Origin: Bacteroidota bacterium
GTDB lineage: Bacteria > Bacteroidota > Bacteroidia > Chitinophagales > Saprospiraceae
Direction: 5' to 3'
Assembly: GCA_003045895.1 (NCBI GenBank)
Contig: PZPC01000013.1
Location: 1 to 64,000, forward strand
DNA: 64,000 nt
Below, one piece after another: positions 31-51,099 of this stretch. Numbering within the stretch: position 1 is the stretch's first letter; each line of letters starts with the position of its first letter. A program made the translations under genes and the position numbers. The notes under the pieces were generated by a model, which did not search any database, was not told the origin of the DNA, and saw nothing but the letters and a program-made list of their open reading frames with translations.

Positions 31-145
31 CTACTTTTACACGTTTACACTTTTACACCTTTACACGGTCTAAAACCTCCGACCTCCCACCTCCCACTTC
101 CGACCTCCCACTGCTCACTTCCAATTTCCCACTTCCCACTTCCAT
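31..145 (+). repeat. Intergenic repeat: four TTTACAC units followed by ten C/T-rich heptanucleotide units
   Basis: 31-67 reads ctacttttacacgtttacacttttacacctttacac. 76-145 parses into consecutive 7-mers CCTCCGA CCTCCCA CCTCCCA CTTCCGA CCTCCCA CTGCTCA CTTCCAA TTTCCCA CTTCCCA CTTCCAT. Confidence 0.85.
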
Positions 146-176
146 AATATTCTCTTACCTTGCCAAGAAAAACAAA

Positions 177-935
177 ATGAGACAATTTTCTTATGTGCTT
201 TGTCTGCTGTTAGCCGTAGCGACCAGTGGCTGTTTTGAGATGCTGGAAGACATTTACGTCAATGCCGATGGTTCGGGGCAGTACCAACTTACAATGGACA
301 TGAGTTCCATGTTGGAAGAAGGTTTTATGGGCGACATGATGAAGCAGGGTATGAAGGATGAAATGGGGGTAGATAAGTTAGAGATCGACTCCTTAATTTC
401 GCTCACCGATTTCCAGGAGGGGGCATTGCCGCCCTCCCTTACCGAAAAAGATCGGGACATTCTCGATCGTACAGAAGTACGTTTGCGCATGAGCGAATCC
501 GATGCAGTCGGCAGCGTGGTGATCAAATTCCTTTTTGCTAGTCTGGGTGAACTCAACGATTTCCAGCGAACATTTGCCAAACTTAACGAAAACGGTGGAG
601 AAGCTTCAGGTATGGGCGGGCTGATGAGCAGTAGCACCATGACGGGAAGCAACTCCTTGTGGAGCCTCTCCGGACGTACGCTGAAGCGGGAAGTAGACAG
701 CTCGGAGAGCAAAAGCATGATGGACGGTATGGATGATGAAACCATGAGCATGATGAAGATGTTTATGGCGGACGCTACCTTCACCACCGTTTACCACTTG
801 CCGGGTGCGGTGAAAAAATGTACCATTGAGCAGGCCAAGGTGGATGGTAAAACGGTTACCGTATCTTACGGCTTTCTCGATATGTTGGAGAAAACGCCCA
901 ATACTGGCGGAGAGATTAAATTTAAGCAAAAATAA
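177..935 (+). CDS. Hypothetical lipoprotein
   Basis: 252-aa ORF with lipoprotein-type signal (LLLAVATSGC). Confidence 0.8.
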   Translation: MRQFSYVLCLLLAVATSGCFEMLEDIYVNADGSGQYQLTMDMSSMLEEGFMGDMMKQGMKDEMGVDKLEIDSLISLTDFQEGALPPSLTEKDRDILDRTEVRLRMSESDAVGSVVIKFLFASLGELNDFQRTFAKLNENGGEASGMGGLMSSSTMTGSNSLWSLSGRTLKREVDSSESKSMMDGMDDETMSMMKMFMADATFTTVYHLPGAVKKCTIEQAKVDGKTVTVSYGFLDMLEKTPNTGGEIKFKQK

Positions 936-3117: not shown

Positions 3118-3903
3118 TTACCCCAAATCGTGCTTTATCCCTGCGGTCAGAATGGTATAAATGTCCGCCCACTGCGGATGATCGTGTAGCATCGCCAGGT
3201 GTCGTTCAATCGTTGCCTGGTCTTCGCGGATGGCCGGGCCGGTTTGGGCTTCCCGGGGGGTAAGGTCTTGTAGCTTTAGAATGGTTTCCATGAGGAGGGG
3301 TTGGACCAATTCCTCAGGCAGATTGTGTTCCCGCAGGAGGGACCGACTGATGTGTTGCAAATAATTAGTAAAATTATTAACAAATATGGCGGCCAGATGC
3401 AACTGGGCGCGTTGCTCGTCGGAGACAGCGTATACTTTGGTGGAAAGTAGCCGGGCCAGATTGGCCACGGCGGGGTAATCGGCCTGCTGCGCTGTGAACA
3501 GACAAAGGGGGATGGTCTTGAAATCTACTTCCCGGTCGCGGGAGAAGGTTTGCAAGGGATAGAAGACCCCGTAGTGCGAAAAATAGGGTGAAAGCACCGT
3601 GCTGGGTGTAGCACCTGCCGTGTGTAGGACCAATGCCCCGGGGGCGATAACCTGTGCCAATGTTGCCGCTACTGCAGCAATAGCATCGTCTTTTACGGCG
3701 ATCAGGTAGAGGGCTGCCCGGGGCGGGATGTCCTGCAAGGTGTTCCCGCCGGGACAACCTAAATGATTGGCTAAAGCAGTTGCCTTTTCGGCACTTCTGC
3801 TCCAGACGTAGCTTACGCACAGGCCACAATGGGCCAATTGCCGCCCCAGGTGCCAGGCCACGTTGCCGGCACCCACCAGCACGATATCCTTAGGCCAGGA
3901 CAC
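3118..3903 (-). CDS. Rossmann-like / DUF2520 domain protein
   Basis: N-terminal VLVGAGNVAWHLGRQL nucleotide-binding motif and DUF2520-like C-terminus (LHTAGATPSTVL, GVFYPLQTFS, FVNNFTNYL). Confidence 0.85.
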   Translation of the reverse strand: MSWPKDIVLVGAGNVAWHLGRQLAHCGLCVSYVWSRSAEKATALANHLGCPGGNTLQDIPPRAALYLIAVKDDAIAAVAATLAQVIAPGALVLHTAGATPSTVLSPYFSHYGVFYPLQTFSRDREVDFKTIPLCLFTAQQADYPAVANLARLLSTKVYAVSDEQRAQLHLAAIFVNNFTNYLQHISRSLLREHNLPEELVQPLLMETILKLQDLTPREAQTGPAIREDQATIERHLAMLHDHPQWADIYTILTAGIKHDLG

Positions 3904-6757
3904 GCTGGGTGCGTATGCGATGAACCATGCTCAGGGTCAGACCGAACATCATAAAGGTAGCGCCGATCCAGAAATAATTGATCCCTGGAAATTCAATCGC
4001 CTGGAGAGCAACCCAGTCGGTCCGGTAGGCTTTGGTAGCTACCGAAAATGCAGCCTGGGGAACGCGGGGAGGTGCTTTGGCCAGGAATATTTTAGCTTTT
4101 CCTGTTTGGGGGTCAAGGGAAACAAAGCGACTGTGAATACCTGCTTCCGTGACCTCGTCCTTGAGGTTCAGCGGGCGGCTGTCGCGAATAAAAAATACGG
4201 GTTCCGAGGTAAATTTCTGGCCGGAAGCAGCCTTGACCTGGAGGGTGGCACCTACCGCAATGTCACCCGTTGCAGGGGTGTAATTGGGGTGGGTGGGGGT
4301 TCGGTTGAAACCGGTAAAGGTAACGGTTACGTCATCCACCCGGACACTGTCGCCCGCGGCAAGGTCATACTCCTGATAGCCGAGCTTACCCTCGGGCGTA
4401 TAAACCAGGTCGAAAATTTCCTCGTTGAGTTTGACCCGGGTATTGATGGGGTTGATTTGTGCCGGAAAGCTGTAAAGTACCTGACCCCGCAGAACAATGA
4501 CCGGATGGGCAATGAAACTGGTATCGAGTTCCGAGTTGTGTACCCGTATCTCCGCACCCACGGCAAGATCGCCCTCTTCGGGCAAGTAGTCGGGGTGAGC
4601 AGCATTGCGGCTCAGGCTGAGCAACTCCAGGTCTACCGTGCGCACGCTGAAAGTATCGCGATCTTCGATGGGGACGGTATCCAACAGGGTAACCTTTTCA
4701 CCAACGGCCAGGGTGAACGGGAGGTAATTGAGGCTATCTTCCTTCGCCTTTTTGGCGTCGATGTCCATTTCCTCCGGCGGCAAGGCGGCAATGTGGGTGA
4801 AAATATCGCGGTTCCAATATTGCTTGGTACTGGGGTTGGAGGCTGCTACTTTGGTAAAGGTTTTGTCGTAAAGGATATTAGGTGATAACTGGAATTGCTC
4901 GATCACCTCCCCCGTAGGGCTCAGCCGTTTGTAGTCGATAAAGTACGTGCGGGTGAGGTAGTCCATGGTGTCTTTGCGCAGGGTCAACTCGTAATCGGCC
5001 ATTATCATGGGCGAATCCTGGATCAGTAAGACCGTATTGCGCTTGGCTTCCTCGTTGGCGGTTAGCCCTTCCATTAAGAATGGATTGCGGGAGATCACTT
5101 TCTGGTTCAAACCACTGAAAAGCACCCCCACGATCATGAGCCCAAACCCGATGTGCGAAATAGCTGAACCACCTACTTTGATGTTCCCCCGTAGGAAGAA
5201 GATGAGGTGGTCCAGGTTGGTCACTACGCCAAACCAACCAGTAAACATAAGGAGTTGGTATTGCCAGGCCTGTAATTGAATGGCCCGTGTGGTGAGGTAG
5301 GTGAAAACTGCGGCGAGTACTACGCTAACGCCCAGGTGCAGCCAAAACTGCTTCTGGTACTGCGGGAAATTGCTTTCGCGCCAGCGCAGAAACTGGCTGA
5401 AACCGGATAGCAAACCGATGAAAACGCCAATCCAGAGTTGGTACTTATTGAAGTGGGGGATGGGATCGGTGATTACATGACCGACGAATCCGGGGTCGAA
5501 GAACTCCCGGATTTTGTTGTAAACGGGCAAGGAGGTCGAGACCGTGATCAACACCGCGGAAAAAAGCAAGACCAAACTGCCGATGAACAACCAGAATTCC
5601 TTGCTGCTGGTGGTTTCTTCTTTGGCGACAACGGGAATCCCCTTCAGCCGGGAGAAGAACAGGTACGTAGACAAGAAGAGGTAGATAAAAATAAAACTGA
5701 CCAGCTGCCATTCCAGCCCCATTTCGGTAAACGCGTGAACCGAAGTTTCGCCCAGTACACCACTGCGGGTGAGGAAGGTAGAATAGATAATGAGGAGAAA
5801 AGACAACGCGTAGAAGATATAGCTGGCGCGGATGCTGTGGTCGGTATTCCGTGCGATCAGGTTGGTATGGATACCCGCAATTAGGGCAATCCAGGGGACC
5901 AACGACATGTTTTCCACCGGATCCCAGGCCCAGTAGCCACCAAAACTGAGGGCTTCGTAGGCCCAGGCACCGCCCATGAGGATGCCCGTTCCGAGAATAG
6001 CGCCACTAAACAAGGCCCACGGTAAGACCGGCTTTAACCAGCCCCGGTGATCGCGCACCCACAAACCTGCCATCGCAAAAGAAAAAGGTACCACCGTGGA
6101 GGCAAAGCCCAGAAAGAGGGTAGGGGGGTGGACGGTCATCCACCAGTTCTGGAGCAAGGGATTCAGCCCCGTACCTTCCAGCAAGCTGACGTATTCCGCA
6201 TTAGCGAACAACGGAATATTCATGGTGTCGCGCAAGAGTAACATGGGGTTGCTACCGATGCGATATGCTTCCTCACCAAAACCCAGGTATACGCCTAGCA
6301 GCATACTGCCAATAATTACCTGTACCGACGACACAATGGACAGCACAGGGGCCTCCCACTGCCGGGCGGAAAGAATCAGCAACCCACCCAGCACCACGTG
6401 CCAGAACATCCACAGCAAAAAACTGCCTTCCTGCCCTTCCCAAAAGGCCGAAAAAATGTAGCGGAAAGCCAGATCGTCATTAACGTGAGCCTGTACGTAC
6501 TGGTACTCGTAATAATTATTGATCATGACAAAGAAGATGCACCCAATAACGGTGAGCACCGCTGCGCCATGGATCCCAAATGCAATACGCCCTAACCTGC
6601 GCCAACTGGTCGCCAAGGGTTCGTTGGCCCGCTTTTGGGTGGCAAAATAAAAGGCCAGTGCACTCAACAAGGCACTGCAAAAGGCAAGAAATACGGCTGG
6701 CTGACCAATGCGGCCGGGCCACAGGTGTTCGCCAACGTACTGGATTTGGTCGGTCAT
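3890..6757 (-). CDS. ccsA: Cytochrome c biogenesis protein CcmF/CcsA family
   Basis: 955 aa multi-TM with WAYEALSFGGYWAWDPVENMSLVPWI (WWD-type heme-handling motif). Confidence 0.92.
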   Translation of the reverse strand: MTDQIQYVGEHLWPGRIGQPAVFLAFCSALLSALAFYFATQKRANEPLATSWRRLGRIAFGIHGAAVLTVIGCIFFVMINNYYEYQYVQAHVNDDLAFRYIFSAFWEGQEGSFLLWMFWHVVLGGLLILSARQWEAPVLSIVSSVQVIIGSMLLGVYLGFGEEAYRIGSNPMLLLRDTMNIPLFANAEYVSLLEGTGLNPLLQNWWMTVHPPTLFLGFASTVVPFSFAMAGLWVRDHRGWLKPVLPWALFSGAILGTGILMGGAWAYEALSFGGYWAWDPVENMSLVPWIALIAGIHTNLIARNTDHSIRASYIFYALSFLLIIYSTFLTRSGVLGETSVHAFTEMGLEWQLVSFIFIYLFLSTYLFFSRLKGIPVVAKEETTSSKEFWLFIGSLVLLFSAVLITVSTSLPVYNKIREFFDPGFVGHVITDPIPHFNKYQLWIGVFIGLLSGFSQFLRWRESNFPQYQKQFWLHLGVSVVLAAVFTYLTTRAIQLQAWQYQLLMFTGWFGVVTNLDHLIFFLRGNIKVGGSAISHIGFGLMIVGVLFSGLNQKVISRNPFLMEGLTANEEAKRNTVLLIQDSPMIMADYELTLRKDTMDYLTRTYFIDYKRLSPTGEVIEQFQLSPNILYDKTFTKVAASNPSTKQYWNRDIFTHIAALPPEEMDIDAKKAKEDSLNYLPFTLAVGEKVTLLDTVPIEDRDTFSVRTVDLELLSLSRNAAHPDYLPEEGDLAVGAEIRVHNSELDTSFIAHPVIVLRGQVLYSFPAQINPINTRVKLNEEIFDLVYTPEGKLGYQEYDLAAGDSVRVDDVTVTFTGFNRTPTHPNYTPATGDIAVGATLQVKAASGQKFTSEPVFFIRDSRPLNLKDEVTEAGIHSRFVSLDPQTGKAKIFLAKAPPRVPQAAFSVATKAYRTDWVALQAIEFPGINYFWIGATFMMFGLTLSMVHRIRTQRVLA

Positions 6758-21404: not shown

Positions 21405-21450
21405 GGGCAGTGGAAAGGACGAGGTATTAATTAAAATGAAAATAGGAAAC

Positions 21451-21511
21451 CGGAGGTGGGCGGTCGGAAGCAAGACCTTCTCACTTCCGACCGCCCACCT
21501 CCGACTTCCGA
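21451..21511. repeat. Palindromic heptad repeat / hairpin between S8 peptidase and WbqC genes
   Basis: Perfect 20-bp arms cggaggtgggcggtcggaag (21451-21470) and cttccgaccgcccacctccg (21484-21503); plus strand from 21477 parses as CTTCTCA CTTCCGA CCGCCCA CCTCCGA CTTCCGA. Confidence 0.85.
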
Positions 21512-21516
21512 TTTCG

Positions 21517-51038: not shown

Positions 51039-51099
51039 CTTAAGTATTTGGACAATAATAAATTTACATTTTTACACCTTCCCACCTTCCCACTTACCC
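51039..51099 (+). repeat. Composite dispersed repeat, copy 2
   Basis: ccttaagtatttggacaataataaatttacatttttacaccttcccaccttcccacttaccc; core identical to 25411-25449 apart from one C/T in the CTTAAGY position. Confidence 0.9.

Follow-up and report, generated by a model that had tools for sequence, protein, structure and literature searches.

The window analysed here, i.e., the whole stretch of 64,000 nucleotides (G000:C27:1-64000), begins with the first base of an assembly contig, and the left neighbour of the heptamer array under study is thus out of view. The features of the window which are needed below are the following:

1-32, no strand assigned: dispersed module GGATACGCC(G)GATGTTGGTCTCGCCCTA, which precedes the period-8 array in many copies and is here also the contig start
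33-66, minus strand: period-8 array, TTTTACAC on the plus strand and GTGTAAAA on the G-rich strand
67-75, minus strand: linker GGTCTAAAA (TTTTAGACC on the G-rich strand), which joins both arrays and recurs in copies genome-wide
76-145, minus strand: heptamer array; its GAAGTGG-like units, i.e., the G-rich strand, are on the minus strand and read away from the lipoprotein gene, into which the C-rich strand reads
156-163, plus strand: TACCTTGC box about 10 bp downstream of the array end, a putative -7-like promoter element of the Bacteroidota type
177-935, plus strand: predicted lipoprotein gene, 252 amino acids, with a lipobox-like SGC and no Pfam match
21440-21515, minus strand: second copy, a heptamer array with an inverted copy directly after the stop of a minus-strand gene, forming a near-perfect hairpin followed by a U-rich stretch

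Bases 76-145 can be read as ten gapless 7-mers (CCTCCGA, CCTCCCA, CCTCCCA, CTTCCGA, CCTCCCA, CTGCTCA, CTTCCAA, TTTCCCA, CTTCCCA and CTTCCAT), with CYTCCSA as the unit and GARRTSG as its form on the G-rich strand. This parse, which had been given in a preliminary description of the sequence, was borne out both by TRF, which reported a period of 7 at 75-143 (9.9 copies, 77% matches, score 54) and a better scoring period of 21 at 78-143 (score 90), and by the lag-7 self-match of the array, which was 47 of 63 in comparison to a mean of 23.8 and a maximum of 38 in 5000 dinucleotide shuffles. The runner-up lag-7 stretch in the 64 kb window scored 35 and was located at 21445, in the second copy. The array is thus confirmed as real and well beyond chance, and the shuffles, together with the Markov and reversed controls described below, rule out chance or base composition as its source. 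TRF also gave two rows, 33-66 and 36-67, for the period-8 array. No ORF of at least 60 amino acids overlaps 1-145, which excludes a coding repeat, and the single match of an Rfam scan of the window was a tRNA, with none over the array, which excludes a known RNA family. Upon folding, 76-145 formed no stable hairpin. Between the array end and the ATG at 177 are 31 bp, in agreement with the spacing of about 30 bp first noted.

Orthologues of the lipoprotein with 61-67% identity were found in the three congeners (G001-G003), none of which carries an array upstream, so that an ancestral array at this locus is rejected. Ahead of the orthologue, a block of TTACCTTG-CAAAAA is conserved in both G002 and G003, and it is also present upstream in G001. 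In G002 and G003 the lipoprotein gene and a gene for a MoxR-like ATPase (family assigned by eye) are divergently arranged; in the genome from which the window comes, hereafter the source genome, this ATPase gene is on another contig (C45; L206), beside a thymidylate synthase-like gene, and the array is therefore at or near a synteny break. The lipoprotein as query against genome contigs gave no orthologue, and the large ORF at 3890-6757 gave one named relative, an uncultured Lewinella, at 74% protein identity. An LptE-family gene (PF04390) was also observed at 1458-1967, two genes downstream of the lipoprotein.

The heptamer array is the gene-proximal half of a composite, in which the period-8 array at 33-66 is followed by the linker and then by the heptamers, and bases 1-75 of the window are likewise dispersed repeat sequence; the module at 1-32 is found beside copies L003, L004, L008, L009, L013 and others. 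Read on the G-rich strand, the composite runs from an array of GAAGTCG, GAAATCG, GAGGTGG or GAAGTGG units through GAAGTTTTAGACCGTG to GTGTAAA-type octamers and on to more dispersed modules, as seen when the copies are read next to each other. The linker pattern GACCGTG[TG]AAA had 16 matches in 836 kb, and GKGKAAA octamers were present within 60 nt of heptamer arrays on the distal side in 71 of 109 cases and on the proximal side in 41 of 109. When positions 30-150 of the window were searched against the source genome, 71 places were returned at E<=10, many of which span both arrays with 80-90% identity. Many contigs of the draft assembly end in such repeat islands; the repeats have probably broken the assembly, and the copy counts given here are for that reason lower bounds. 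No terminal inverted repeats were seen by eye around the composite. Two Y1 transposase genes are present in the source genome.

To describe the wider family, we used the 5.57 Mb source genome together with an 836-kb sample of it, made up of whole contigs and contig stretches, the contigs being known from repeat matches. The preliminary description would have been refuted by a lack of period-7 enrichment in other intergenic regions of this genome. The results showed the opposite, since the exact pattern (GARRTSG)x3 had 297 overlapping matches in comparison to 0 for the reversed control, and the array at 76-145 belongs to a set of related heptamer arrays, well over a hundred in number, which are scattered between genes. 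The 836-kb sample contained 63 arrays of at least three units, 32 with exactly four, in comparison to 0 in a second-order Markov control. Genome-wide, four units is likewise the mode (56 of 122 distinct arrays), and 5 of the 122 are inside called ORFs. This genome-wide family rules out a lone promoter array. The general kind first suggested, a heptanucleotide repeat resembling the short tandem repeats (STRR) of filamentous cyanobacteria, fits; the array is, however, not an isolated one at a lipoprotein promoter but forms one half of a dispersed composite of 7-mers and 8-mers, which is found mostly after stop codons. An assembly artefact is also ruled out, as arrays are present in relatives, including a genome of one contig. 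DNA matches were obtained in 8 of 61 genomes, namely the source genome and seven relatives, of which three are the congeners and four represent further genera of the family. In a phylum-wide draw of 396 genomes, the exact three-unit array was found in only 8, and in more than a handful of copies in the source genome alone; outside the three congeners and a small number of further genera of the family, few members of the phylum carry the unit. Searches gave no match among phages and viral contigs and one weak match among plasmids, on which basis a phage, plasmid or viral origin is rejected. The earlier statement that no equivalent described family is known in Saprospiria agrees with our literature search, whose incomplete coverage contained no paper describing one.

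Gene calls for the positional analysis came from a simple home-made codon-usage caller, so that single distances are approximate; one genome per species was used, and the context samples were selected around arrays in part for the source genome and entirely for the relatives. Of the gaps in the 836-kb sample, 8 of 61 between convergent genes, 11 of 263 between co-directional genes and 2 of 89 between divergent genes contained arrays. Copies are found mostly after stop codons rather than before starts, with the array beginning a median of a few tens of nucleotides past the stop, and about 4-7% of 3' ends bear one. When the array nearest to a gene end was scored in each gap, its G-rich strand was directed away from that gene in 91 of 106 cases from five genomes (p=2e-14). 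The away to toward counts were 39:4 for the source genome, 35:11 for the closed congener G002, 12:0 for G004 of another genus, and 5:0 for G023 and G017 together. The rule is also obeyed within convergent gaps alone (29:6, p=1e-4), and the avoidance of polar effects on a downstream gene therefore cannot explain it there. Gaps with both orientations have G-sense first and G-antisense second in a ratio of 17:0, one convergent gap of the source genome reading -+- being left out of this count. The polarity is not accounted for by replication strand, as the G strand in G002 is leading in 24 and lagging in 32 cases. The array at 76-145 belongs to the minority class, i.e., upstream of a start and on the antisense side; arrays of at least seven units in the source genome and G002 are mostly of this class (5 of 6, Fisher p=0.004), and in G004 most arrays are long and mostly after stops. 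Array-free gaps of the source-genome sample have a slight excess of G over C on the strand reading away from genes (+0.066 after stops and +0.104 before starts).

In comparison to this polarity, the positions themselves turn over almost completely between congeners. The genes flanking 63 islands of the source genome and 48 islands of G002 have one clear common orthologue (83% identity), which we estimate to be about the chance expectation. The polarity rule is therefore kept although individual arrays are gained and lost.

The closest known kin are the GGGNATC, or GGGGA(C/T)T, heptamers of Xanthomonas and Nostoc, whose G-strand points away from the nearest ORF, in sense up to 50 bp past stops or in antisense up to 50 bp ahead of starts, and which are rare between divergent genes; about 90% are intergenic in Xanthomonas, with a modal four units and inverted pairs close together, and no function was assigned by the authors (PMC4692102). 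The present arrays share with them the dispersed heptamers, a mode of four units, the inverted pairs and the polarity. The differences are that the unit GARRTSG has no conserved G triplet, that the arrays are joined to a period-8 array and other modules, and that positions are barely common to congeners, in comparison to mostly common positions in two xanthomonads, the species compared here being more distant.

There is no accepted explanation for the abundance of heptamer arrays at the gene borders of some bacteria. That the positional rule of Xanthomonas and Nostoc recurs in an unrelated lineage, with a unit in which the G triplets are not kept, makes the G-quadruplex account less convincing and directs attention to the composition of the strands and the direction of transcription as what matters. 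The C-rich strand at 82-159 (78 nt) has a C/G ratio in the top 0.013% of all 78-nt windows, and across the family the C/G of this strand is above the 99th percentile in 95% of arrays. The 7-mer and 8-mer units, which are unrelated to each other, are both G-depleted on one and the same strand, and the C-strand RNA is essentially unstructured (MFE -4.2 kcal/mol for 116 nt). The stretch 82-159 accordingly has the composition of a rut site, i.e., 70-80 nt of unstructured RNA with C well above G, and Rho is encoded in the source genome. Classical rut sites are 70-80 nt long (PMC6407284), and about 80% of the mapped Rut sites of B. subtilis are antisense to genes (PMC12350095).

Based on these observations, the array at 76-145 is a copy of a lineage-specific, fast-turnover family of intergenic composites (heptamer GARRTSG array, linker and period-8 GTGTAAA array), which in our tentative reading act as a one-way border together with Rho. 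Copies would spread via local duplication, slippage and recombination, and would persist mainly where the G-rich strand is directed away from the gene next to it; a C-rich, G-poor and unstructured RNA would then be made only by transcripts running into the gene. At 3' ends such RNA would come from antisense read-through, and at 5' ends, as at 76-145, from read-through from upstream; in either case it would serve as a loading site for Rho and make the element a one-way transcription border. Since the C-strand nearly always reads into the gene, a Rho-loading border would account for arrays of the 3' as well as the 5' class, and it would be the one known mechanism that could be named for both. 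The anatomy, dispersal, polarity, turnover and strand composition of the family and the presence of Rho are observed here, and what is presumed is the loading of Rho, the termination and that the polarity is due to selection. Several observations argue against it. The arrays are dispensable, because only about 4-7% of 3' ends bear one, and their positions turn over almost fully between congeners. A four-unit array is 28 nt, below the rut length which the composite approximately reaches, and array-free gaps are already weakly skewed with the same sign. Cyanobacteria are not known to have Rho. Because the same rule holds in Nostoc (PMC4692102), Rho thus cannot be its general cause there.

About as likely as the Rho border is a non-adaptive origin, in which slippage or recombination would make the arrays grow where transcription exposes the G-rich non-template strand, with R-loops over rG:dC just past stops, and the polarity would be a footprint of how the arrays form and not of a function. 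The near-complete positional turnover, the prevalence of G-sense arrays after stops, the few lineages with arrays and the missing tie to phages or plasmids all agree with such an origin, as do whole segments tandemly duplicated in gaps, e.g., at 328117-328450 and 3860847-3861244 of G002 and on C13 of the source genome. The arrays of at least seven units in the source genome and G002 argue against it, as they are mostly upstream-antisense, where sense transcription leaves the G strand unexposed; in G004, by contrast, long arrays often follow stops.

Quite unlikely in our view is an RNA-level 3' element, in which the sense RNA with its G-rich sequence, either by itself or paired with an inverted copy, would end or protect the mRNA as a terminator-like structure or a 3'-UTR stabiliser. 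As the short distance from stop to array leaves little room for a prior terminator, the arrays should be transcribed in sense. G-then-C pairs occur in 13 gaps of G002, and some copies are near-perfect hairpins and look like terminators in the folding model right after a stop, e.g., 21440-21515 (MFE -61.8 kcal/mol, z = -11.2), whose U-rich tail is imperfect. However, most arrays of the source genome are without an inverted partner, the one tested (L015) folds no better than shuffles, and the upstream-antisense class, including 76-145, is left unexplained.

A G-quadruplex element, as proposed for the Xanthomonas and Nostoc heptamers, is very unlikely here, even though unit length, polarity rule and modal four units of the source genome are as in those bacteria and the mostly GAAGTGG-like units of G004 give GGG every 7 nt. 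The base deciding on GGG is C in 52% of the units of the source genome and 63% of those of G002, and a three-tetrad quadruplex is therefore not supported as the maintained property, while the polarity is kept. In addition, four-unit arrays have a position-specific pattern (GAARTCG in units 1-2 and GAGGTGG in unit 3), which from the sequences looks like copying of one ancestral module. Highly improbable is a phase-variable promoter array controlling the lipoprotein by a change in unit number: the array is of the long class and close to the conserved putative -7-like box, but its diverged units (77% matches) slow slippage, the family adjoins many different genes, mostly after stop codons, and the congeners are without an array at this locus.

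A broader proposal, to which we give little weight, is that heptamer arrays in at least three phyla would be one-way transcription borders which evolved repeatedly, the selected trait being the strand (C-rich RNA only in transcripts entering the gene) and not G-quadruplexes; the present lineage is taken to suggest such strand selection because its polarity persists without G triplets in about half of the units. The fast turnover also provides many natural comparisons between congeners with and without an array.

Similar to the STRR of cyanobacteria, the present repeats are short tandem C-rich/G-rich heptamers dispersed between genes. The STRR unit is of CCCCRRT type. The complementary units in the Xanthomonas and Nostoc study agree with this type (PMC4692102), which the CYTCCSA/GARRTSG unit does not match, and the phylum and the period-8 composite also differ, with no evidence of common descent. 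The TAACTGA repeats of Beggiatoaceae, also found in a few Bacteroidetes, are mostly just before start codons in the main genome and in forward orientation, with CsrA as one proposed binder (PMC4679880); they resemble the present arrays as intergenic, lineage-restricted, patchy heptamer direct repeats of variable copy number, and differ in unit, in that most copies here follow stops and in that the source genome has no CsrA gene, which excludes a CsrA-binding array.

In Porphyromonas gingivalis a MITE-borne minisatellite has been described, which is similar in being a tandem repeat inside a dispersed element of a Bacteroidota member (PMC4596501). It differs in that no terminal inverted repeats were seen here and a MITE-like palindrome (GGACAATAATAAATTTACAT...ATGTAAATTTATTATTGTCC) is instead inserted within some period-8 arrays (L017 1501-1831, L025 1501-1831 and L146 at about 3986). 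The ends of this palindrome have 12 matches in 836 kb, and one of them is in the window at about 51042-51070, beside degenerate 8-mers and 7-mers. These islands also contain another dispersed repeat, ACGCTGAAGACGTGGC(AGGCA), frequently as tandem copies (L004, L005, L008, L013, L153 and others; 32 matches in 836 kb), and additional common island modules, GGTCAAAAGTCCTCCTTTGGAGGAGG, GGCACGCCCGGGCGTGCC and CTTGCGCAGCAAGC, are short hairpins (L002, L010, L161, L162 and others). Array-plus-linker segments of about 104, 128 and 259 bp were tandemly duplicated within single gaps (G002:C1:328117-328450 and 3860847-3861244; G000:C13:4119-4671).
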